Origin: Campylobacteraceae bacterium
Lineage (GTDB): Bacteria > Campylobacterota > Campylobacteria > Campylobacterales > Sulfurovaceae
Assembly: GCA_027036015.1 (NCBI GenBank)
Contig: JALVTH010000021.1
Location: 1 to 44,856, forward strand
Length of the DNA: 44,856 bases
Direction of reading: 5' to 3'
Shown: positions 2,394 to 30,356 of the stretch, one piece after another
How the letters are laid out: every line of letters starts with the position of its first letter
Numbering within the stretch: the first letter of the stretch is position 1
The notes under the pieces: model-generated
The model's input: the letters and a program-made list of their open reading frames with translations, nothing else
Database searches by the model: none
What the model was told of the DNA's origin: nothing
Position numbers and translations under genes: made by a program

Positions 2394-3172
<779 letters not shown>

Positions 3173-5861: not shown

Positions 5862-7046
5862 ATGAAAAAAACACTTTTACTTTCAGTAGTAGCTTCTGGA
5901 ATAATCTATGCTGGTGGGAATATTGCTCCTGCTCAGCCAGTTGCTCCCCAAGCTGCTCCAGCTGCATGCGATTTTTGGGGTGTAAGTTCATTTGCCTATC
6001 GAGCACAAAAGCTTAGCACAAAAGGCGATAGCTGGGGAGCAAAAGATAACTATGCAATGTTTAAAATGGCTCTTGGTGTAGAAAAAAAGCTTGGTTATGG
6101 TTTTGGAATTGGTGCAGAGCTTGATCACATTACCTATTTTGATGGCAAATTAAACAAAGATAAAAGCATCTCAAAATTAGCACAACTTTATGCAACATAT
6201 ACTTTTGGAAATACTACAATTAAAGCTGGACGCCAAACATTACCAAAAGCATTAAGCCCTTGGGCATGGTCTTATAGAGATGCTGGATATTTAAAACAAA
6301 CATTTAATGCAATTACAATCGTAAATAACAATTTACAAGATACAACATTAGTTGCTGCATGGGTTCCAAGTGTTTTTACAGACAAAGGCAACACAAAAAT
6401 CAATGGCTCTAATAAGGGTCTTTTTATGATTGGAGCGCTTAATAAGTCGCTTCCAAATACAACAAATGCAACAAGTATTTATTATATGCCAAAAAATGGA
6501 AACAAAGGCAAAGCATTTTCTATCTGGAATACAACTGAAACAAAAATGAACGATATTGAACTTGGATTGCAGCTTGTTTATACAAAAGCTGATAAAAACT
6601 CTATGGCACTTATTAAAGGTGCAACAGGTACGAAAGCCAGCTACTCAATTGCAGGATATATTGGCACAAATTTTGGTGCACTCAATGCACGAATTTATCT
6701 TGATTATATCAATGATGGAGATGCAACACTCAACCTTGGTGGAACAAGTGCACTTTGGGGACGCTCTTTGGATAAATCATTTAGTAACGACGTTGTAGCT
6801 GGAACAAAACAAAAAGTTGCAAAACTTGCTCTTAAATATAAATTTCAAAACAATACAAGTGCATATTTTGATGTAGCTCTTGATAAACCAGATAGCGGTA
6901 AAAAAACAGCATATGGTTTAATTACTGGATATAAATTTATGGTGAAAGATGTGCATGTAAAAGTTGAATATCGCTATGTAAAAAATAAAGATTTTACAAA
7001 AAGAAAAGATCAACGCTTTAGAGTTCAAGCACTCTATAAATTCTAA
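5862..7046 (+). CDS. Outer-membrane porin (Campylobacterota major OMP type)
   Basis: 394 residues with a clear signal peptide (MKKTLLLSVVASGIIYAGG) and then a Pro/Ala/Gln-rich linker at about 21-34. Beta-strand-rich sequence with alternating hydrophobic residues follows, ending in a C-terminal aromatic (VQALYKF), the usual signal for BAM insertion. KAGRQTLPKALSPWAWSYRD at about 121-140 resembles the OprD/Campylobacterota porin constriction region. It probably forms a general or anion-selective diffusion channel. It is monocistronic, with its own direct-repeat site upstream and a strong terminator behind. Substrate is unknown. Confidence 0.88.
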   Translation: MKKTLLLSVVASGIIYAGGNIAPAQPVAPQAAPAACDFWGVSSFAYRAQKLSTKGDSWGAKDNYAMFKMALGVEKKLGYGFGIGAELDHITYFDGKLNKDKSISKLAQLYATYTFGNTTIKAGRQTLPKALSPWAWSYRDAGYLKQTFNAITIVNNNLQDTTLVAAWVPSVFTDKGNTKINGSNKGLFMIGALNKSLPNTTNATSIYYMPKNGNKGKAFSIWNTTETKMNDIELGLQLVYTKADKNSMALIKGATGTKASYSIAGYIGTNFGALNARIYLDYINDGDATLNLGGTSALWGRSLDKSFSNDVVAGTKQKVAKLALKYKFQNNTSAYFDVALDKPDSGKKTAYGLITGYKFMVKDVHVKVEYRYVKNKDFTKRKDQRFRVQALYKF

Positions 7047-15206: not shown

Positions 15207-16291
15207 TTATCCAAAAGAATCTTGCTATTTTTATTTAATTTTTCTGAGCTAAGAGCTGCTTTGTTATTATTGATTGCTAAAACTTTCACTTTTATAAACT
15301 CTTTTTTCCAGCCATTTTGAACAATTACTCCAGCCTCTTCTCTTTTATATCTAAGAGCTAAAGCATCAACAATCCACGCATCTTTTATGGTTTTTAGAGC
15401 AATTTTAACTCTTGCTTGTTCATATAAAAAAAACTCTTTTGGTATCTTTTGAAATGCTACATCAAAGATTCGCTCTTGCGTAATTGGATTGCATGCTTTT
15501 TCTATCCTTGCAACAAAGCCTTTATAATGCTTGCCGCTTCGTAAATAAATTTGTGCTCTCATTTGAGGGATTATATCTTTAGCGACTTTATCATCCAAAT
15601 AAGCCTCTACCCAAAGCTCTTTTGGATTTACTATATGAAAAAGACTCTTTTGAGGTAAAAAAAGCTGTCCCCTTGTTGCAAATCTTTTCACAATAACGCC
15701 ATCTACTGGAGATTTAATAATAAAATCGTGATACTTTTTTTCTAAAATTTTGCCTTGAAGTGTAAGCTTATTCATCCTTTTTTCAAGCGCTTTTAACTCA
15801 AGCTTTTTCGCTTGTAAACGCGCCTTTGTGGCTTTAAAAAGCGCTTCTTTTTGTTCAAAAAGCTCTTTTGAGGCTACTTTATGCAAAAATAACGCTTTAT
15901 AGCGCAAAAACTCTTTTTTCTTTTGATTATAAGAAATTTGTAAAGCTTCTATCTCTTTTTTTGTTGCGTTTATCTCTAAATTAAGCTCTTTTCTTGCAAC
16001 GTTATTTTTTTGAATTTCAAGAGCAACACTTTTATTATCACCAATGGCTAAGATATCTCCTTTTTTAACAAAATCACCCTCATCTTTAAAAACTTTTATA
16101 ATTTTTGCAGGATAGGTAGGAGTGATTTTATAAATATTTGTTGCACTCACCCTCCCAATTGCTTCAACAACTTTTGTTAAATTTCCTTTTTTTGGATAAA
16201 TATAAGTTTTATTATGAGATTTTTGCCAAAAGAAAAAAATAAAAGCTAAGGCGCCAACGAAAGCGCCAAGGAAGAAAAGTTTATTTTTCAT
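15203..16291 (-). CDS. HlyD/DevB-type periplasmic adaptor of the ABC exporter
   Basis: 362 residues. An N-terminal membrane anchor (about 5-22) is followed by a biotinyl-lipoyl-like half (KVFKDEGDFVKKGDILAIGD), a long coiled-coil hairpin rich in Lys/Glu/Leu (about 95-190), the second lipoyl half (SPVDGVIVKRFATRGQLFLP) and beta-barrel domains. It would bridge the ABC permease to an outer-membrane channel, probably the TolC-like protein encoded 4 kb upstream in the same run. It overlaps the RND gene by 11 nt. Confidence 0.9.
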   Translation of the reverse strand: MKNKLFFLGAFVGALAFIFFFWQKSHNKTYIYPKKGNLTKVVEAIGRVSATNIYKITPTYPAKIIKVFKDEGDFVKKGDILAIGDNKSVALEIQKNNVARKELNLEINATKKEIEALQISYNQKKKEFLRYKALFLHKVASKELFEQKEALFKATKARLQAKKLELKALEKRMNKLTLQGKILEKKYHDFIIKSPVDGVIVKRFATRGQLFLPQKSLFHIVNPKELWVEAYLDDKVAKDIIPQMRAQIYLRSGKHYKGFVARIEKACNPITQERIFDVAFQKIPKEFFLYEQARVKIALKTIKDAWIVDALALRYKREEAGVIVQNGWKKEFIKVKVLAINNNKAALSSEKLNKNSKILLDK

Positions 16292-19200
16292 CTTTTGCTA
16301 AAGGATTTTCTTTATCAAAAATATAAGCATAAATTGGAACATACACAAGTGTTAAAAGTGTTCCAATCAAAAGTCCTCCAATTGCAACATCTGCTAATGG
16401 ACTAAGGCGCTCAAGCCCTACTGCTTGCTCAAGTGCAATTGGAATCATTCCAGCAATTGTAGCAAAAGCTGTCATCATAACAGGGCGAAAACGCACACTT
16501 ACACTATCAAGCGCACTTTGAAAGTTGCTCTCACCTTTTGCTTTATTTGCTTGGTAAAAATCAATAAGTAAAATCGCATTTTTAATAATAATTCCAAATA
16601 AAAGTAAAACTCCAAGTAAGCTTGGCATACAGCTTGGCTTATGAAACAAAAGCATTCCCCACGCAGCTCCAATTAAAGAAAGCGGCAATACAACAATCAT
16701 AATAAATGCCAAGCGAACAGAGCGATAAATTGCAATCAAAGCCATTATTAAAAGCACTACTCCAAGCCCTATTGCTTTAATCATACGTTTGAAGCTTTCT
16801 TTAAGCTGGGCAATATCTCCCCTTTGAGTTAATTTTACTCCATTTGTATCGATATTTTTCAAACTATTTACTGTATCATCGGTTAGGTGTGTTACTGGGC
16901 GTTTTGCACGATATCCATTAATATCGATGCTATAGAGCATCTGATCTCGCTCAATTTTTGCATAGGTTAAGTGTTTATGAATCGTTGCAATCTCAGACAG
17001 AGGTATCTCTCCAAATTTTGTGCTAATTGGCAAAAGTTTGAGTGTTTCTAAATTTTGGGTATATTTTGTTTTGATATAAAATCTTACATATTGTGTATTC
17101 ATTGATTCTAAATTTCCAAGAAGTGAGACAACTTGCCCTTTAATTGGAAGCTGAGCGGCAACTTGAAGCGGGGTTATACCATAGCTTAGCGCTTTATTTT
17201 GATCAATTTTTATCTCATACTCACTAAAGTCTTTATCCCAACTAATAGAAGTTGAGGTAAAGCCTTTCACCTGATTCATTACTTCTTGCACTTTATGTGC
17301 AATTGGCACTAAATTTTCAATATAAGGCGAAAAGGCTCTGGTATCTACTGTTGCTTTAATAGATGAAAGTGGTGTTGCTCCAAAATCAAAAACATCATTT
17401 CTTTTAATTCCTTCAATTTGAGCAAGTTTATCGCGAATCATATCTTCTAATTGCCAAATTGTTGCATTGCGCTCAAAGCGATTGACTGTATCAATGGTAA
17501 TTGTAGCTTCTGTTGGCAAATTTCCACTGCCAAGACTCAAAACCCCCATTTCACTTCCAAAAGCAACTGAGCTTCTTACAACCCAAGGCTGGCTATGGAG
17601 CCATTTTAAAAATGGCTTTAATTTTTCTTGGGCTTGCTTGGTTGTTTCATTGGCACTAAAAGCAATTTGTGCTTTAATAATTCCTGTATCCATTGGAGGC
17701 ATTGTATCTTTACCAATAGTTGGCATAATGTTTTTAAGCGAAATAAGCAAAACTGCAATAGCAATCATTGTAAGCATAAAGCGTTTTGGTATCTTAAAGC
17801 CATAGTTTGTAAATTTGATAATATTTTCATAAGGAATAACAAGTTTTCCAATAGTGTGTTGATAAAACCACTCAAAACCCTTTTCTATTTTTGTTTTTTG
17901 CGTTCCATTTCTATAAAGCCAGCGTGAAAGTTGTGGAATAAAAGTAATAGATAAAAAGTAACTAACAAGCAATGCAATAATAAGTGTCATAATAAGTGGT
18001 CTAAAAATTTTTTGAGGATAGCCTCCAACAAACATTAATGGAAACAAAATAGCAATAGTTGCCGCAGTCCCGGCAAATACCGCCAAAACCACCTCTTTTG
18101 TTCCATTTACAATTGCATCTTGTAAATTCTCTTTCTCTTCATTTAAGTGGCGCTCAATATTTTCAAGCACAACAACTGCATCATCTGTAAGCATTCCAAG
18201 AGCTAAAATAATTGCTGTATAAATTACAATATTAAGTTCCCCTCCCATAAGCCAAATAATTGCAATTGTTGCAAAAAATACCATTGGAATCGAAAGCCCA
18301 GCCGCAATAATAGCTCGAAAATTTCCAAGAAAAAGCATTATTACTAAAAGCGTATAAATAATTGCATCTCTTAGAGCTTCAAGCATATTGGTATTTGCTT
18401 GTTCAATCAAATCTCTTTGCGTATCGCTAATTTCAAACTTAATTCTTGGATATTTTTTTTCAAGCTCTTTCATAGCAGCTCGTGCAGCTTTACTTACATC
18501 TAAAACACTTCCGCCTGGCGCTCTTTGAATTGAGAGTGCAATTGCTTCTTTTCCATTACCCAAATAGCCGCTTGTTCTTTTTTTATAATCCCATTTAATT
18601 GTAGCAATATCTTTAAGTCTTACATTTGGCTTGATAGTTAAATTCTCAAGCGCTAAAACATTATCTTTTTCACCATACATTGTAACAGTAAAAAAGCCAT
18701 CTTTACTCTTGATAAATCCAACAGGAACATCTTTGTTTTGCGATTTTATAACTTTAATAATTGTAGCAAAATCAATTTCATACTTTTTTGCTTTGAAAGG
18801 ATCAATATTTATTGTTATTGCACTCTCATATCCGCCAAAAACCTCAACATTTCCAATCTCAGGATTGCTTAAAAGATATGGTTTTATAAAAGAAGTTGCA
18901 ATTTTTCTAATTTGAGATAATGTAATATTTTCATCTTTTGGACTAAGTGCAATTACATCAACAGGCAGGGTAAAATCACCTGTTGTATAAATTGCTGGAT
19001 TAAGATTTGCAGGAAGTTTTGCTTTTGCAATATTGAGTGCATTTGCAACATCAACTGCCGCTTCATTAAGTGTCTTTTTATAAGTAAATTCAGCCTTTAC
19101 AATAGAAAAGTTTGCCAAATTAATGGAGCTTACATCTTTAATATGTCCAAGCCGCAAAAGTTCCGCTTCAATTGGTTTAGAAACTGTGCTTGCGGCAACT

Positions 19201-19364
19201 TTTGCTGTAGCTCCTGGAACTTGCGTTACAACTACAACAGTTGGAGGATTGGCATCTGGAAAGAGATTTTTTGGCAACTTAATAAGCCCAACAACCCCCA
19301 TAATAAAAAAAGCGGCAATTAAAGAATAGAGCAAATATGGGCGTTTATAGAAAAAATCAAACAT
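16281..19364 (-). CDS. RND-family efflux pump (HAE-1/AcrB type)
   Basis: 1027 residues, the full length of an inner-membrane RND trimer subunit with 12 helices and two large periplasmic loops. The proton-relay aspartates appear in ALGMLTDDAVVVLENIERHL and the partner Lys in GIIIKNAILLIDF, as in AcrB. The usual V before DD is T here. The DD-A pattern favours organic-substrate pumps over metal (CusA) pumps. It lies 3 nt after its adaptor gene and overlaps the next adaptor by 11 nt. The substrate is unknown. Confidence 0.93.
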   Translation of the reverse strand: MFDFFYKRPYLLYSLIAAFFIMGVVGLIKLPKNLFPDANPPTVVVVTQVPGATAKVAASTVSKPIEAELLRLGHIKDVSSINLANFSIVKAEFTYKKTLNEAAVDVANALNIAKAKLPANLNPAIYTTGDFTLPVDVIALSPKDENITLSQIRKIATSFIKPYLLSNPEIGNVEVFGGYESAITINIDPFKAKKYEIDFATIIKVIKSQNKDVPVGFIKSKDGFFTVTMYGEKDNVLALENLTIKPNVRLKDIATIKWDYKKRTSGYLGNGKEAIALSIQRAPGGSVLDVSKAARAAMKELEKKYPRIKFEISDTQRDLIEQANTNMLEALRDAIIYTLLVIMLFLGNFRAIIAAGLSIPMVFFATIAIIWLMGGELNIVIYTAIILALGMLTDDAVVVLENIERHLNEEKENLQDAIVNGTKEVVLAVFAGTAATIAILFPLMFVGGYPQKIFRPLIMTLIIALLVSYFLSITFIPQLSRWLYRNGTQKTKIEKGFEWFYQHTIGKLVIPYENIIKFTNYGFKIPKRFMLTMIAIAVLLISLKNIMPTIGKDTMPPMDTGIIKAQIAFSANETTKQAQEKLKPFLKWLHSQPWVVRSSVAFGSEMGVLSLGSGNLPTEATITIDTVNRFERNATIWQLEDMIRDKLAQIEGIKRNDVFDFGATPLSSIKATVDTRAFSPYIENLVPIAHKVQEVMNQVKGFTSTSISWDKDFSEYEIKIDQNKALSYGITPLQVAAQLPIKGQVVSLLGNLESMNTQYVRFYIKTKYTQNLETLKLLPISTKFGEIPLSEIATIHKHLTYAKIERDQMLYSIDINGYRAKRPVTHLTDDTVNSLKNIDTNGVKLTQRGDIAQLKESFKRMIKAIGLGVVLLIMALIAIYRSVRLAFIMIVVLPLSLIGAAWGMLLFHKPSCMPSLLGVLLLFGIIIKNAILLIDFYQANKAKGESNFQSALDSVSVRFRPVMMTAFATIAGMIPIALEQAVGLERLSPLADVAIGGLLIGTLLTLVYVPIYAYIFDKENPLAKDEK

Positions 19365-19367
19365 CTC

Positions 19368-20378
19368 TTAGCCTTTTATACGAATTTTTGCACCGCTAAC
19401 AAGTCTAAGCAAAATATCTGGTTTAGCAACAATTACTTTTTTGCCAACTAAATTCTCTTTAACCACAACTCCTTCTTGCCCTTTTTTTACAATATGCACC
19501 TGCAAAGGTGTAGCTTGATTGTTTTTGGCAATTAAAACATAATTTTTGCCTTCACTATTTAAAATGGCATCAAATGGGAGTTTAATAGCTTTGCCCCTAA
19601 AAGTTACTACTTTTATTTCAACTTTTTCGCCAAGATTTAATGAACTATCATCTACTTTTGCTTTAAATTCACTAAGTCCATGAAATGTTGAATGCAAAGG
19701 AGTGAGTTTAAGATGTTTACCTTTAAAAATAATCTCATTTGCTGTTTCTTCTTGAGGCAAGCGAACAAGTAGATAATAACCACTATTTGCAATAATTTTT
19801 AAAAGCGGCTTCCCTGGCATTGCAATTGAGCCTTCGCTTTCAAAGCTTTTTGCAATCACCCCATCAACTGGACTTTTAACAATTGCATAAGTAAGATTAT
19901 CTTTTAATGAAGCAATTTTGGCTTTTAAAGTAGCAATCTTGGTTTCAATTTGTTCAAGCTGATCTAATGAAGCACTTTTTGCTTTAAAAAGCGTTAATAT
20001 TCGCTTATGGGTAGATTTAGCATTTTTTAGGGTAATTTCAAGCGCTTTAATATTTGCTTCAATTTGTGTTGTATCTATTTTTGCAACAATTTCACCCTTT
20101 TGAACCTGCTTACCACTTTTTTTAATCATTTCAATTCTTCCGCCAACTTTTGAAGCAAGTGTTACACTTTTTTCATTTTCAACAATTGCTAAATAAGGCA
20201 ATGTAAGTTCACTCTCTTTTATTTGAGGAGTAATAGTTTTTACAACCATTGGATAGCTTTTTGGCGGTGGCATTTTTGCCTCTTTTGCTCGTCGTATTTT
20301 AACTATTTTTAAACCAATTGCTAAAATTACTAAAATCGTTAATAATACAAGTACTCTTTTTAAAATTGTTTTTATCAT
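19368..20378 (-). CDS. RND efflux periplasmic adaptor (MFP)
   Basis: 336 residues. An N-terminal membrane segment (about 8-25) is followed by the first lipoyl half (LASKVGGRIEMIKKSGKQVQ), a short coiled-coil hairpin (about 108-145), the second half (SPVDGVIAKSFESEGSIAMP) and beta-barrel and membrane-proximal domains. This is the AcrA-like partner of the RND pump 3 nt downstream. Its start overlaps the TolC-like gene's stop by 4 nt (ATGA). Confidence 0.92.
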   Translation of the reverse strand: MIKTILKRVLVLLTILVILAIGLKIVKIRRAKEAKMPPPKSYPMVVKTITPQIKESELTLPYLAIVENEKSVTLASKVGGRIEMIKKSGKQVQKGEIVAKIDTTQIEANIKALEITLKNAKSTHKRILTLFKAKSASLDQLEQIETKIATLKAKIASLKDNLTYAIVKSPVDGVIAKSFESEGSIAMPGKPLLKIIANSGYYLLVRLPQEETANEIIFKGKHLKLTPLHSTFHGLSEFKAKVDDSSLNLGEKVEIKVVTFRGKAIKLPFDAILNSEGKNYVLIAKNNQATPLQVHIVKKGQEGVVVKENLVGKKVIVAKPDILLRLVSGAKIRIKG

Positions 20379-21649
20379 CGAACTACTCCTTTTAAGTCAT
20401 CTCCATAAATTACAGCAAGTTGGGCTCTATTTTGCCAAATTTGAGCAATAATTTTTGCAAAATCTGCCTTTGCGCTAAAAAGCGCATCTTCATAGCGTAA
20501 ATACTCTTCTTGCGTGATTGAACCTTGCAAAAAGGCAACTTTTGCCATTTTTAAAAGCTCTTGCTGCTGTTTAATACTTTTTTTAGCTAAGCGGGCTGAT
20601 TGTTGCAAAAGGGCTATATTGTTTTTGATTTTTTTTGCTTCTACTTTTAAGCTATGGCGCATTTTCTTAATAAATAGTGCATTTTTTAAATAGTTTATCT
20701 TGGCTATTTGCACATCAACTTGCTTTTCTTTATCAAATAGCGGCATTGTGGCACTTAATTTAATTTGGGCTAAATTTTTGTGCATAAAGGTATCGGTATT
20801 GATTGAGTTTCCATGCTCTCTTGCAACAATACCGCTTACAACTACTTTTGGATAAAAAGCCCCCTTAGCAGCTTCTATTGCTTTTTGGCTTGCTCTTAAG
20901 GTGCTTTGCAACGGTTTAAGAGCAAAAAATTCACCCTTTTTTATGTGTCTTTTTAATCTAAGAGAAATTTTGCCTTTTACCTTTATCCCTGTTAAATCTT
21001 GCAACTTAGCAAGCAATGCAAGGCGATTTGTTTTTAAAAAAGCTTGATTGATTGTAATTTCATTTAATTTTGTATTAATTAAAAGCAATTTACTATAAGG
21101 CATTTGCCCAATTTTAACCCCTAAGGCAGTTTTCTTTTTGGTCTCTTTGATAGAGCGCTCTTTTGCACTTAAAGCCCTTAGCATTGCATCAATATAATTT
21201 AATTGAGCCACTGCTCCAACAACTATTGCTTCATTTTGTAACAAATTTAATTTTCTTTTTTGTTTTGCACTAAGCTCTAAATATTTTGCTCTTTGCTTTA
21301 AGGTAAAAAGCGATTTCACAAACACTGGCCAAGTTACCTTAATACCCTCTTGAATGATGGTTTTGCTAAAGGGTTGGGAGAGGTTTTTGTTTTTGAGTAG
21401 TTTTGCACTCTGGCTTGGTAGCAACACGCCAAGTGGTTTGTAGATGCTATTTTGCTCAACACTTCCAAAAAGTGTAACCTTGGGCCAAAATTTGGCACCT
21501 ATTTTTTTGCCCCCTAAGCTTGCTTGCTCTATACTTAGAGTATCCATTTTAAATTGAGGCTGATTTTTTAAAGCACTAAGTAGCGTTGAAATCGAGGTTG
21601 CTTCAAGGCTACACAACAATGCTATAGATAAGAAAAACGATTTTTTCAT
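20375..21649 (-). CDS. TolC-like outer-membrane efflux protein
   Basis: 424 residues with a signal peptide (MKKSFFLSIALLCSLEATS). The remainder is mostly long amphipathic helices with two repeated halves, as in TolC/OprM; the tail AKIIAQIWQNRAQLAVIYGD is typical. It would serve as the exit duct for the RND pump and perhaps also for the ABC exporter of the same run. The ribosome-binding site GAGGGTGG sits in one arm of a 10-bp inverted repeat (see 21650-21737). It is the first gene of the operon. Confidence 0.9.
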   Translation of the reverse strand: MKKSFFLSIALLCSLEATSISTLLSALKNQPQFKMDTLSIEQASLGGKKIGAKFWPKVTLFGSVEQNSIYKPLGVLLPSQSAKLLKNKNLSQPFSKTIIQEGIKVTWPVFVKSLFTLKQRAKYLELSAKQKRKLNLLQNEAIVVGAVAQLNYIDAMLRALSAKERSIKETKKKTALGVKIGQMPYSKLLLINTKLNEITINQAFLKTNRLALLAKLQDLTGIKVKGKISLRLKRHIKKGEFFALKPLQSTLRASQKAIEAAKGAFYPKVVVSGIVAREHGNSINTDTFMHKNLAQIKLSATMPLFDKEKQVDVQIAKINYLKNALFIKKMRHSLKVEAKKIKNNIALLQQSARLAKKSIKQQQELLKMAKVAFLQGSITQEEYLRYEDALFSAKADFAKIIAQIWQNRAQLAVIYGDDLKGVVR

Positions 21650-21737
21650 AAAGCCACCCTCTTTTTTTAATAATTATAACATAACTTTTTATGAACATAT
21701 GCTAAAAATTTTTAAAATTTTGATTTTGGGTGGCTTT
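21650..21737 (-). promoter_or_regulatory. Inverted repeat masking the tolC ribosome-binding site, with internal promoter
   Basis: AAAGCCACCC (plus strand 21650-21659) and GGGTGGCTTT (21728-21737) are exact complements. On the minus-strand RNA the downstream arm is the tolC Shine-Dalgarno sequence. An extended -10, TGTTATAAT, lies between the arms on the minus strand (core 21673-21678). Read-through RNA from the YjbH-like gene could hide the site, whereas RNA started inside would leave it open. Inferred from sequence only. Confidence 0.5.
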
Positions 21738-21742
21738 TTTTA

Positions 21743-23632
21743 TTAATAATTTTTAATATAGTCTAAATTGTTGCGCCCCTTTTTTAAAAAATAGTTTTCT
21801 AATGTAAAATCATTGTCAACTTCTTTTAAATGCATCGGTTGTGCATAACTTGCCCCGCCTTTTGCAACTAAAGTCTTTTTGCGCTCATAGGTAAAGCTTC
21901 CTAAACTAAAATTGGCATAGCGGAAATCTTTATTGCTCTTTCCAAGAGGAATAACAATTTGAAGTCTCCCAAGCTTATTAGTTCCTCTTAATGGATGTTT
22001 CGTATAAGCAAAATCAGCCTTTATAATAATATCACCAAAATATCGTTTAAATCCTACATCAATTCCTTTATCTCCATAAAGATATTTTCCAAGCGTTAAA
22101 GAGATCTCACTATTAAATTTATCTAAATAATAACTATATCGAAGCAATGCTTCTTTTCTATATTTGCTGTTATCATATTTATACATCATATCATAAAGAT
22201 TATCTTTTAAATAAGCAAGTTTTAATTCAATCATATGTTTGTAATCTTGGCTTAAAAATGCACTTTGCCATGCAACTCCACTCAATTTATAATCAAAAAG
22301 TCCAGCTTGAAAGCTATTTAACCAATGAAACTTTTTGCCATGATAGATAAAATATTTATTTAAAAGTGCCAAATCAATGACTGCTTTATCTTTATTTCTA
22401 TTTCGATAACTAAAAACATTACCCTTTTTAAAATTGTATGTAACTCTTAGAGGCAAATAAAAATTCAAAGCTCCTATAAACCCGCCTCCAAAACGACTAA
22501 AAAGTGTTGTATTTAGCGCAAAAACTTCATCTAAACTACCATACTCTGAGCCATCAATTAAAATTAAAGATGGTGTAAATTTAAGATAAGGTTTAAGCCA
22601 ATCACTCTTTTTTATAGTTGTTTCTTTTTGTAAATTTGCTAATTGAATCGGGTTTGTGCCACCTTGCTCTAAATATTGAAGATATTTTTTTGGATTTGCT
22701 TTTAGAGTCATAAAAGGCAAATTAGCTTTTTTTAATGTTACAAAAATTCTCTTTTTGTTTAAATATTGTTTGGATAAAGAGGCAAATACTTGCTTGATAG
22801 CATAAGCATCACTATTACTATAAAGATTATTTTCAAAACTATAATAGATACTATCATGCTCTTCTTTTAAAAAATGGTTAGCAAACTTTTTATAAATAAA
22901 GGGTTTGATTTTAAATTTAGCTTTATGTTTAAAATCAAATCGAACATAACTTGCAAAATAGCCTTTATGATAACTAAAAGAGTTTTTATACATAAATCCA
23001 AAAGTTGTTGGTATATTTAAAATATTTGTTTTAAGTGCACTTTTTGCAACCCAGTTATACTCTCTGCCATCATATTCAGCTCCAAGCTCCAACCAATCAA
23101 AGGGTTTAAAAGCAGTATTTGCAAAAAATCCATCAAGGGAACCTTCATTATATCCTTTTGCATACCCTAAAGATGCATAAAAGTTTTTAAATTCTTTTGT
23201 TGCAACTACATAAAAACTTTTTATATGCTGAGCTCCACCTGCAATATCTTGACCGCCAACTGCAATTTTTACAATATTTTGCATAAATGGTAATTGATAT
23301 TTAAAATTCAAACTTCTATCAGATAAATAACCATTATCACTATTTCCATTTTTATAAGCATAAGAATATTGAGCGCTTATTTCCAAATTTGGTAAAAAAC
23401 CAAAAGCAAGGTTATAATTTTGCTCTTTTGCTATCTCTCTTAAGTTAGGTTCACTATGTGGGCGAAGATTAATAACTTGATTATTATAAAGATATTGAAT
23501 TTCTCCTTCTTTTAAAACGAAAGCATTTGGTGTATTAACAACACCTAAAAAACCATAAAACGAAGGAAAATTAAAATTACTTGCTCCTGCTAAAGAGCTT
23601 AAAACTAAAAAAAAACTTACTTTTTTAAACAT
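21743..23632 (-). CDS. YjbH-like outer-membrane beta-barrel protein
   Basis: 629 residues with a signal peptide (MFKKVSFFLVLSSLAGAS). FPSFYGFLGVVNTPNAFVLK (about 22-41) then EGEIQYLYNN matches the start of YjbH-family proteins, and the rest is dense beta-strand sequence (YKYDNSKYRKEALLRYSYYL and similar) consistent with one or two large barrels. In enterobacteria YjbH belongs to an exopolysaccharide export locus, yjbEFGH; no yjbE, F or G partner is seen here. The gene follows a lipoprotein gene by 35 nt, probably one operon. Confidence 0.75.
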   Translation of the reverse strand: MFKKVSFFLVLSSLAGASNFNFPSFYGFLGVVNTPNAFVLKEGEIQYLYNNQVINLRPHSEPNLREIAKEQNYNLAFGFLPNLEISAQYSYAYKNGNSDNGYLSDRSLNFKYQLPFMQNIVKIAVGGQDIAGGAQHIKSFYVVATKEFKNFYASLGYAKGYNEGSLDGFFANTAFKPFDWLELGAEYDGREYNWVAKSALKTNILNIPTTFGFMYKNSFSYHKGYFASYVRFDFKHKAKFKIKPFIYKKFANHFLKEEHDSIYYSFENNLYSNSDAYAIKQVFASLSKQYLNKKRIFVTLKKANLPFMTLKANPKKYLQYLEQGGTNPIQLANLQKETTIKKSDWLKPYLKFTPSLILIDGSEYGSLDEVFALNTTLFSRFGGGFIGALNFYLPLRVTYNFKKGNVFSYRNRNKDKAVIDLALLNKYFIYHGKKFHWLNSFQAGLFDYKLSGVAWQSAFLSQDYKHMIELKLAYLKDNLYDMMYKYDNSKYRKEALLRYSYYLDKFNSEISLTLGKYLYGDKGIDVGFKRYFGDIIIKADFAYTKHPLRGTNKLGRLQIVIPLGKSNKDFRYANFSLGSFTYERKKTLVAKGGASYAQPMHLKEVDNDFTLENYFLKKGRNNLDYIKNY

Positions 23633-23667
23633 AAGAAAGCCTTTAAAAGAGGCAAAAGCCCCTTTTA

Positions 23668-24384
23668 TTAATCTGTAGCATTATCTGATGGTGGAGGTGG
23701 AGGAGTAATTTCTCCTTTTTTAATTTTATTTTCTACTTCTTGCAAGTGTGAAACTACATCATCTGGAGTTTTGGTGGTTAAATTAATATCATTAACACTA
23801 ATCCCCTCTTTTGATAATTCAGATTTAATTTGATTTTTTAATGTATCATTATTTTCTATTTCATTTTTTACATCAGTTATAACATCTACAACTACACTTT
23901 CGTTTAATTGAGTCAAATCAATAGTTCCACTTTTTCCTGTGTTTTCTTTTACTTTCTCTTCTAAAACTTTTTTTAATGTTGGAGAAATTGCAATTCCGTT
24001 ACTTGGATCTCCATCTGGATCAAGCGATAATACAACAGCTGCAAGTTTTTTTACTCTTGAATCACTAACATTATCTCTTGGTACACCAACCAAATCTTGT
24101 GGAGTAAAGAGCCCATCATGAGTCTCTTTGGATTTACCTAATACAACTCCCCCTAAAGAAATTGTTGCTTCACTTCCTTTTGGGCATGGTCCAAATACTC
24201 CATTTTTATCTGTTACACCTTTTTTGTCACCACAGCTAAAATCTGCTCCTGCAACTACATTATCCACAAATTTACCATTAAATGCTTTTAGTTTCGTATG
24301 ATCACTACACCCACTAAACCCAAGCACAATAGCTGCACTTATTGCACCTAAAAATAACCCTTTTTTTAAAAAAACATCCTTCAT
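23668..24384 (-). CDS. Secreted lipoprotein with a TDxNGxF-type beta domain
   Basis: 238 residues from the ATG at 24384, selected because AAGGA lies 7 nt upstream. It has a lipoprotein signal peptide with lipobox FSGC (Cys about 25). After this, VVAGADFSCGDKKGVTDKNG then FGPCPKGSEATISLGGVVLG forms a small beta domain that recurs in surface lipoproteins of other bacteria. It holds two Cys that could form a disulfide. A helical, charged middle follows, and the tail is proline-rich (ITPPPPPSDNATD). It lies upstream of the YjbH-like barrel and probably works with it at the outer membrane. Confidence 0.75.
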   Translation of the reverse strand: MKDVFLKKGLFLGAISAAIVLGFSGCSDHTKLKAFNGKFVDNVVAGADFSCGDKKGVTDKNGVFGPCPKGSEATISLGGVVLGKSKETHDGLFTPQDLVGVPRDNVSDSRVKKLAAVVLSLDPDGDPSNGIAISPTLKKVLEEKVKENTGKSGTIDLTQLNESVVVDVITDVKNEIENNDTLKNQIKSELSKEGISVNDINLTTKTPDDVVSHLQEVENKIKKGEITPPPPPSDNATD

Positions 24385-24535
24385 GCTGTTTCCTTCTCCG
24401 TAATATATAAACATATTTTATATAATTAAACTTAAATAAATATGAAGTCTATAATCAATTTAGCAAAAATTATTCTCATTAGATTAACTTTTTGTTACAT
24501 AATTCATACATATTATAAAACTAATAAATTTATGT

Positions 24536-27202: not shown

Positions 27203-28132
27203 ATGAATAAAGTTAATAGAGCAATTCTTTTTGCCTTTGGACAAATTACAAAATGGCAAAATTTAAAAATTATTTTATTAAGTGGTATATTAGTTACTAT
27301 CTTTTGGCTTATTATTGGACTATTGTTTCAAAATGCTTTAATTGCGCTTGGAGCAAAGATTTTAGAATTTGTTCCATTTTCGATGGTTCGAAGTAATGGA
27401 GCTTTTATGCTTGAAGGCTTTTTATGGTTTATTTTAGTCTTAATTACCTTTGCTATTATTCAAGCCTTTTTTGGATCACTTTATCTCAAAGAACACCCAA
27501 GCACCAACAAAAGCAATACTTTTACCTTTTATACCCTTTTATTAAGCGCAATTATTTGGGGTATAGTTTTTTTTATAAGCCATCATTACATTTATGCAAA
27601 TTTTCTTCGACTCTTAACATGGCTTCCATTTGAAACAGTAGAAAAATCACTTGCTTTTATTATTGCCTTTTATATCATATATAATGCCATTATTATTACT
27701 CTTTTATTTGTAGCAAGTTTTTATAGCGAAGCATTTATTTCAACAATTGCACAAAATAGCCTCAATAAAGAGATTGTAAGAACTCATATTCTTTCATCTA
27801 TTAAATATACCATTAAAGATACGCTCATTTATATGCTTTTGAGTATCATCCTTTTCCCTTTGCTTTTTATTCCAATTTTCAATTTTTTTGTACAAATTAT
27901 TCTTTGGATTTGGCTTTATAAAGATACATTAAGCTTTGATGCTCTCTCTTTAGTATATGAAAAGGTCGATACTGCTTTAAGAAAGGAGCATAAAGTTGCA
28001 ATCTATCTTTTAAGCTTTGTATCTATTCTTTTTAATTTTGTTCCGATTTTACACATTTTTGGAGCATACTTTGGTGAAATTGCCTTTTTTTACTACTTTC
28101 ATCTTTTAAAGGAAGAAGATGGCTCTAAGTGA
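27203..28132 (+). CDS. EI24-domain (CysZ-like) membrane protein
   Basis: 309 residues with about seven hydrophobic segments. The arrangement of paired long helices and the C-terminal stretch FVSILFNFVPILHIFGAYFG then EIAFFYYFH fit the EI24/CysZ superfamily, inner-membrane proteins that in gamma-proteobacteria carry sulfate. The ribosome-binding site AGGAG is 6 nt upstream. Its end overlaps msrB by 14 nt. The family call is moderate and the substrate is unknown. Confidence 0.72.
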   Translation: MNKVNRAILFAFGQITKWQNLKIILLSGILVTIFWLIIGLLFQNALIALGAKILEFVPFSMVRSNGAFMLEGFLWFILVLITFAIIQAFFGSLYLKEHPSTNKSNTFTFYTLLLSAIIWGIVFFISHHYIYANFLRLLTWLPFETVEKSLAFIIAFYIIYNAIIITLLFVASFYSEAFISTIAQNSLNKEIVRTHILSSIKYTIKDTLIYMLLSIILFPLLFIPIFNFFVQIILWIWLYKDTLSFDALSLVYEKVDTALRKEHKVAIYLLSFVSILFNFVPILHIFGAYFGEIAFFYYFHLLKEEDGSK

Positions 28133-28660: not shown

Positions 28661-29980
28661 ATGAAAAAATATTTGTGGCTTTTGGCAGCCTTATTATTGC
28701 CAACTCTTAGTTTTGGTGCCGATAAACTTGATACAGGTGATACAGCTTGGATGATGGTTTCAACTGCATTTGTTTTATTAATGACTCCAGCTGGACTTGC
28801 ACTTTTTTATGGTGGAATGACAAGAGCAAAAAATGCACTCAATACTTATGCTATGGTTACAGGTGCATTTATTGTAGCAATTATTGTATGGATTCTTGCT
28901 GGATATTCACTTGCTTTTGGAGAAAATGCTAATGCTACACTTCAAAAATTTATTGGTGGGCTAAGCAATGTAATGTTAAATGGCATTAAATGGGATGATT
29001 TAAGTGGAACATACCCAACGTATGTTTTTGTAGCTTTTCAAGCAACATTTGCTGCAATTACTGTTGCAATTGCAAGTGGTTCTGTGATTGAGAGAATGAA
29101 ATTTTCTACATGGATGGTAATTGTAATTCTTTGGGGACTTATTGTTTATGCACCTATTGCACATATGATTTGGGGTGGTGGTATGCTAATGAGTGATGGA
29201 GCACTTGATTTTGCTGGTGGAACAGTTGTTCATATGAATGGTGGACTTGCTGGTTTAGTACTTGCTCTTTTAGTTGGAAAAAGAAAAGGATATCCAAAAG
29301 TAGCTCTTAAACCATTTAGCATTATTTTAACAGCACTTGGAGCAGCTTTACTTTGGTTTGGATGGTATGGATTTAACGCTGGTAGTGCCTTTGGAGCAAA
29401 TGCAATTGCTGGCTTAGCTCTTATGACTACAACAGTAGCAACTGCAGCTGCAGGAGTTACTTGGATGCTTTTAGAGTGGCTCATTTATAAAAAGCCTACA
29501 CTTCTTGGTATTGCATCAGGAATTGTAGCTGGACTTGTTGCAATTACGCCAGCAGCTGGATTTGTAAGTGTTGGTGGTTCAATTATCGTAGGAATTGTTG
29601 GATCAATCATAGCATTTTTTGGTGTAGTAAAACTTAAAAAGATTTTTGGTTATGACGATAGTTTAGATGCTTTTGGAGTTCATTTTTTAGCAGGTCTTTG
29701 GGGTGCATTAGCAACTGGTCTGCTTGCAGTACCAAACAAAGATCTTTTATGGGATGGTCCACTAAAAGCATCAATTGAAAAAGGTTTAGCGCCAGATTAT
29801 ATAGGACAATTTATGGTTCAATTAAAATCAGTTGTAATTGTTGGAGCTTGGACACTTATTGGAACAGCAATCGTTTACTTTGTTGCAAGCTTATTAACTG
29901 GTGGTGCAAGAGTTGATGAAGAGAGTGAAGAGATAGGTCTTGATGAAGCAGTTCATGGAGAAAAAGGCATTAACCTCTAA
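28661..29980 (+). CDS. amt: Ammonium transporter
   Basis: 439 residues. After a signal-peptide-like first helix (MKKYLWLLAALLLPTLSFGA) there are 11 helices of an Amt/MEP/Rh trimer subunit. The early segment AGLALFYGGMTRAKNALNT is diagnostic. The twin pore histidines are present in VVHMNGGLAGL and GVHFLAGLWG. AAGGAG precedes the ATG. glnK follows at 30015, 34 nt after the stop, the classic pairing in which GlnK plugs the pore when nitrogen is plentiful. Confidence 0.96.
   Translation: MKKYLWLLAALLLPTLSFGADKLDTGDTAWMMVSTAFVLLMTPAGLALFYGGMTRAKNALNTYAMVTGAFIVAIIVWILAGYSLAFGENANATLQKFIGGLSNVMLNGIKWDDLSGTYPTYVFVAFQATFAAITVAIASGSVIERMKFSTWMVIVILWGLIVYAPIAHMIWGGGMLMSDGALDFAGGTVVHMNGGLAGLVLALLVGKRKGYPKVALKPFSIILTALGAALLWFGWYGFNAGSAFGANAIAGLALMTTTVATAAAGVTWMLLEWLIYKKPTLLGIASGIVAGLVAITPAAGFVSVGGSIIVGIVGSIIAFFGVVKLKKIFGYDDSLDAFGVHFLAGLWGALATGLLAVPNKDLLWDGPLKASIEKGLAPDYIGQFMVQLKSVVIVGAWTLIGTAIVYFVASLLTGGARVDEESEEIGLDEAVHGEKGINL

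Positions 29981-30002: not shown

Positions 30003-30356
<354 letters not shown>

Follow-up and report, generated by a model that had tools for sequence, protein, structure and literature searches.

In translational coupling, ribosomes translating an upstream gene melt a stem that lies over the Shine-Dalgarno (SD) sequence of the gene downstream. A related form of control is the fold-back of the IS10 type, in which an additional arm, present on the read-through RNA of an insertion sequence, base-pairs with the transposase start region and guards the element against external promoters. In phage T4, gene e (lysozyme) and also soc, 49 and I-TevI give rise to long, upstream-initiated RNAs that hide the SD sequence and the AUG in a helix, as described in the passages of PMC3014915 drawn on here. 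For gene e, the same passages set the long early RNA, whose SD sequence is hidden, against the late-promoter RNA, which lacks the 5' strand of the helix and is translatable; the structure and the 5' ends are reported there, as is a 100-fold effect, and related phages are predicted to have similar leaders (PMC3014915). Fold-back transposase inhibition is not mentioned in the searched passages of PMC5006887, and a literature search by title and abstract found no paper on the YjbH-tolC efflux junction that is the subject of this work.

The junction belongs to a Campylobacteraceae genome of 1.69 Mb in 79 contigs, one of which, 44,856 nt long, was analysed in full and is referred to below as the window. 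On its minus strand, the genes follow one another in the order lipoprotein-like (23668-24414), YjbH-like, TolC-like, fusion protein, RND permease, second fusion protein, FtsX/MacB permease and ABC ATPase. The YjbH-like protein of 629 aa (21743-23632) matches YjbH PF06082 with an E-value of 2.5e-21. The TolC-like outer membrane efflux protein of 424 aa (20375-21649), whose gene is the first of the efflux operon, matches OEP PF02321 (E 6.4e-34) and matches TIGR01844 only under the family cut-off. It is followed on the same strand by the membrane fusion protein (19368-20378, HlyD_D23) and the RND permease (16281-19364, ACR_tran, E 2.9e-166). Between the lipoprotein-like and YjbH-like genes (window 23632-23668), right ahead of the YjbH start, there is a AAAAGGGGC-TTTT-GCCTCTTTT hairpin, which may attenuate transcription or affect the YjbH start. 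Elsewhere, the window encodes two closely alike P-II proteins of 113 aa each (2831-3172 and 30015-30356), and one of their genes directly follows an ammonium transporter gene (28661-29980).

The YjbH-like and TolC-like genes are separated by 93 nt of the minus strand. An earlier note on this DNA had described an inverted repeat at 21650-21737, with an exact complement of its downstream arm sitting just past the YjbH-like gene, and both statements are borne out. The two 10-nt arms are exact: arm 1 (AAAGCCACCC, 21728-21737, minus strand) starts 5 nt past the YjbH-like stop codon TAA (21745-21743), and its exact complement, arm 2 (GGGTGGCTTT, 21650-21659, minus strand), abuts the TolC-like ATG (21649-21647). 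Read along the minus strand, the junction runs from the YjbH-like stop TAA through 5 nt, arm 1, TGTTATAAT and arm 2 to the ATG, with 68 nt between the arms and 88 bp in the whole arm-to-arm unit. The downstream arm had also been equated with the SD sequence of tolC, which is true of half of it. Recognised from the sequence, the SD core GAGG (21658-21661, minus strand) stands 8 nt ahead of the TolC-like ATG; arm 2 takes in its GG and the entire SD-to-AUG spacer, but the GA falls outside the arm, and in the predicted fold it pairs with an inner UC. Over the window, Rfam 15 at gathering score matches five tRNAs alone and nothing at the arms. A simple terminator scan of the minus strand between the two genes gave no terminator-like site, and an intrinsic terminator of the YjbH-like gene was considered and rejected, there being no compact G+C stem with a U run on this strand; the last letters of the 3' arm are UUU, and AUGAAAAAA comes next.

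Between the arms, 32 nt ahead of the ATG, lies a perfect extended -10 element, TGTTATAAT (21673-21681, minus strand). In 330,238 bases of the same genome, TGNTATAAT occurs 51 times; 24 of the 51 copies lie outside ORFs, and 20 of the 51 precede a start on their own strand by 150 nt or less, many of these by 26-40 nt. A scrambled-motif control over the same bases gave 45 copies, of which 5 lie outside ORFs and 6 precede a start within this distance on their own strand. As a consensus match at the usual spacing, TGTTATAAT is very probably the efflux operon's own promoter. Judged by the position of the -10 element, transcription would start near 21666 and produce a leader of about 17 nt (21650-21666, minus strand). 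The earlier suggestion that a promoter between the arms yields RNA lacking the first arm agrees with this consensus and spacing, and with a start site that is itself predicted from them.

RNA carrying both arms is predicted to fold as a single rod at -23.2 kcal/mol (z -4.77), a stability equalled by 0 of 200 shuffles; over a longer stretch of 174 nt, the fold does not stand out (z -1.58, 17 of 200 shuffles equally stable). The 68-nt loop alone folds no better than many of its shuffles (212 of 2000 fold as well), and the same applies when the arms are held fixed (143 of 1000). Since the loop is unstructured, the signal is carried by the 10-bp arms only. Access to the SD sequence was expressed as the energy needed, over the ensemble of folds, to open the 9-nt SD region. 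With arm 1 present, this predicted cost is 11.8-16.2 kcal/mol in RNAs of 126-536 nt; in RNAs beginning after arm 1, it is 2.9-3.3 kcal/mol, and for the promoter RNA about 3.2 kcal/mol. In the model, arm 1 also lies within the footprint of a ribosome terminating at the YjbH-like stop codon. Because it begins only 5 nt past that codon, arm 1 would be occluded by the terminating ribosome and the SD sequence set free again: with a footprint placed from 21757 to 21729, its size being an assumption, the cost on read-through RNA is 2.8-3.3 kcal/mol. Silence of read-through RNA would therefore be confined to times when ribosomes do not reach the end of YjbH. The earlier note held that the SD sequence can be hidden on read-through RNA only and that efflux translation could depend on the promoter used. 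The predicted fold and costs favour such hiding, and in silico the SD sequence is freed on promoter RNA, but the ribosome at the YjbH stop reopens it in the model, and the idea had omitted YjbH translation. Once corrected for this, it is physically plausible as judged from the modelled costs.

In the mechanism that we propose, the efflux operon would be run from its own extended -10 promoter, with its leader of some 17 nt. Arm 1, situated between the YjbH-like gene and the promoter, would be present only on RNA entering from upstream, and the YjbH-like gene would be the source of any such predicted read-through into tolC. On read-through RNA, arm 1 would pair with the TolC-like SD sequence and spacer and block initiation, so that stray read-through would give no pump protein, while promoter RNA without arm 1 would be translated. 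The stem would open briefly whenever a ribosome completed YjbH, and read-through RNA, instead of being silent at all times, would in this way become tied to YjbH translation. Read-through transcription, the start site, the effect of the ribosome and the benefit to the cell are the parts of the model that we infer. We advance silencing of read-through by arm pairing, lifted on promoter RNA and by YjbH-terminating ribosomes, as a tentative reading whose chances we put a little short of even.

How unusual the junction is was assessed in several ways. The arm pair is the window's sole perfect 10-bp inverted repeat when 6 or more G/C and a loop of 3-80 nt are required; by the same definition, a 287-kb sample of the genome contains three repeats, two of them with a loop of at least 30 nt, and first-order Markov simulation leads one to expect 0.15 per window. 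When the spacer was shuffled with dinucleotides kept, 1 of 2000 shuffles attained the observed SD-opening cost and 16 of 2000 attained 12 kcal/mol. Ranked by upstream-dependent SD hiding in samples of genes from its own genome, the TolC-like gene came first of 284 (stretch L072, which has N runs, being left out) and then first of 565, with control gene starts set by a simple rule (ATG plus best SD) and some of them wrong. Across 2044 genes from five family genomes, one stands above it, trpS of G063 (17.1 vs 12.8 for the TolC-like gene, 352 G063 genes), and none is higher among 1127 genes of G065, G062 and G035; these larger samples leave out any gene that has N close to its start or fewer than 150 nt of sequence ahead of it. 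A rate of 1 in 2000 shuffles over about 1700 genes nevertheless implies about one such case per genome by chance. The arm pair is improbable for one given gene, yet the feature was picked post hoc for being striking.

Comparison with relatives covered 175 family genomes, and the 88-bp arm pair is present in one of them, the window's own. TolC homologues occur in 62 of the 175 and matches to the YjbH-like gene in 12; besides the window's genome, two of these 12 match the TolC query too, on separate contigs. Apart from the window's own genome, none of the 175 has a YjbH-like gene beside a TolC homologue, and a scan of named genomes with the TolC-like protein gave no match. A TetR homologue lies directly upstream on the same strand at 32 of 36 loci, a set that leaves out L012 and L013 and to which the remaining matching genomes contributed no locus; three loci are without one (the window, L011 and L035) and one ends too early. 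A further 49 loci, found with the RND protein in named genomes, come mostly from Sulfurovum, Sulfurimonas and other Campylobacterales MAGs, so that the window probably stems from a Sulfurovum-like bacterium; these loci served solely to count tetR and to look for the arms: TetR is upstream in 33 and absent in 5, while 6 end too early and 5 have no TolC match. Over both sets, which overlap in content, tetR precedes the TolC-like gene in 65 of 85 loci, and TetR_N was confirmed for four of the upstream proteins. In nearly all tetR loci, the TolC-like gene starts within tetR or right at its end, which leaves no spacer to set beside that of the window, and no relative with the same junction was found. 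The clear orthologue in L035, which is without tetR, has an ordinary SD-opening cost of 3-5 kcal/mol and no SD hiding.

In the window, tetR is absent directly upstream of the TolC-like gene, and the one clear TetR_N match of this genome is on another contig. An EI24-family gene is found just upstream of tetR-tolC in L018 (L018:3551-4261), and another member of this family lies at window 27203-28132, 5.5 kb upstream of the TolC-like gene with other genes between; it is possible that these positions are a trace of the rearrangement that removed tetR. A fuller history, in which the lineage lost the adjacent tetR, the efflux operon came to lie behind the YjbH-like gene and the promoter within the stem was adopted as a switch, with promoter RNA translatable at all times and read-through RNA only as long as ribosomes complete YjbH, so that pump output would report translation of an envelope gene, strikes us as improbable.

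Other genes show features reminiscent of this layout. In the same genome, L077 (14640-14710, minus strand) repeats the layout, with TAACTTAGC 6 nt past an upstream stop codon, TGATATAAT in the middle and GCTAAGTTA at the next start, between an AIR synthase C-terminal domain gene upstream and a Peptidase_M30 lipoprotein-like gene downstream. The trpS-like gene of G063 (L157:13479-14438, minus strand) has a palindrome 5 nt ahead of its start, present in 8 of 175 family genomes, all 8 of them from genus g9 (L233-L242), with TGCTATAAT in the 5' arm, the SD-bearing ATTATAGCAGGAG in the 3' arm and loops that vary; the arms were set by the search pattern, and the TIGR00233 match was checked for G063 alone. 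On a longer RNA, this palindrome would be expected to hide the SD sequence, or the presence of TGCTATAAT on both strands could instead make it a symmetric, two-way promoter. At L139 (12030-12110, plus strand), CCTTTGACAT and ATGTCAAAGG surround TGTAAAAT upstream of a small lipoprotein-like gene; the 5' arm includes a -35-like TTGACA, the 3' arm includes the SD sequence, and SD hiding amounts to 7.8 kcal/mol.

L077 and the trpS gene of G063 prompted a general rule that promoters lie within such stems, which was abandoned after it failed a prospective test on three other family genomes. In the discovery sets, SD hiding of at least 8 kcal/mol was seen for 2 of 19 (G000) and 1 of 12 (G063) genes with an extended -10 element and a co-directional neighbour, and for none of the 30 (G000) and 14 (G063) with a divergent neighbour. 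The prospective test applied the same thresholds to unseen stretches. At 8 kcal/mol or more it gave 0 of 17 co-directional extended -10 genes, a number that affords low power, together with 0 of 25 divergent genes and 8 of 1085 others; at 5 kcal/mol, 3 of the 17 passed, as did 3 of the 25 and 56 of the 1085 (p 0.06 by Fisher's test for the 17 versus the rest). A rank test gave p 0.04 vs all others and p 0.36 vs divergent genes.

The most serious rival to the proposed silencing is neutral coincidence: the operon would be driven by its own promoter, a complement to the SD sequence would have arisen by chance in an AT-rich spacer, and the stem would be unselected and of little effect on a rare read-through RNA. 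The shuffling rate of about one case per genome of some 1700 genes is what this reading would lead one to expect, and it also accommodates the restriction of the arm pair to a single family genome, the failed general rule, the unstructured loop and the ordinary cost of the tetR-less orthologue in L035. It sits less easily with the TolC-like gene being the most extreme of 565 in its genome, with the position of a credible promoter right between the arms and with arm 1 directly after a stop codon. We regard coincidence as a substantial possibility, though one that we would not bet on; most likely the arm pair is an insulator, effective though perhaps of minor importance, and coincidence is nearly as likely.

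Three readings that place the function in DNA or on the other strand have far lower probabilities. On the plus strand, the arm GGGTGGC is followed by TTTTTTT, and the fold (-19.7 kcal/mol, z -3.84) might serve to terminate antisense RNA coming from the efflux operon side. The loops of usual terminators are, however, far shorter than the 68 nt found here, the minus-strand fold is stabler, and the plus strand to the left offers no obvious RNA to stop, its closest ORF having its end at 7046 once a short ORF that runs antisense to the RND gene is set aside; we consider a plus-strand terminator very unlikely. There is similarly little to commend an operator in which the arms, as two inverted 10-bp half-sites around the promoter, bind a regulator, for instance to form a loop. 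The arms do flank the promoter on the DNA, and related efflux operons adjoin tetR genes, but the 10-mer has just two other copies in the genome, both in coding ORFs, one half-site overlies the SD sequence and the start, and the single clear TetR_N match of the genome lies elsewhere and was found by one of four operon TetR queries, at 26.5% identity. Least probable of all, to the point of being hardly credible, is the remnant of a small mobile element with the arms as terminal inverted repeats. The 88-bp unit has perfect 10-bp ends and its junction is unique to this genome; against this, it is a single copy, absent from the 174 other family genomes, its flanks show no evident target duplication, and the promoter inside it is of a working type and normally spaced. 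A miniature mobile element or IS fold-back proper was rejected, given the single copy and the lack of a transposase.

Should read-through silencing at tolC be real, it would constitute a chromosomal bacterial case of the phage T4 trick, where the promoter used determines whether the mRNA is translatable at all. It would also offer a cheap curb on unwanted pump synthesis in an efflux operon without the usual neighbouring repressor, and RNA abundance over such genes would mislead wherever the read-through RNA is translationally silent.

Set beside the described systems, the junction resembles translational coupling in that a ribosome ending its translation of the YjbH-like gene would reach arm 1, and differs from plain coupling in that the putative internal promoter would also yield RNA needing no coupling. 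By analogy with the IS10 fold-back, the extra arm on read-through RNA would pair with a start region; unlike that system, the tolC junction is a single copy with neither a mobile element nor a transposase. The likeness to T4 gene e is closer, comprising a predicted SD/AUG helix on RNA that includes the upstream arm and a promoter that, going by its consensus and predicted start, is placed so that its RNA would lack the 5' arm. Unlike gene e, the gene here is a bacterial efflux gene, its hiding stem is a predicted one, the arm pair is found in just one of 175 family genomes, its own, and arm 1 follows a stop codon, which would allow coupling to the upstream gene. The mechanism itself is already known from T4 gene e, as set out in those passages of PMC3014915, and the tolC junction is either a new example of it or a chance match.
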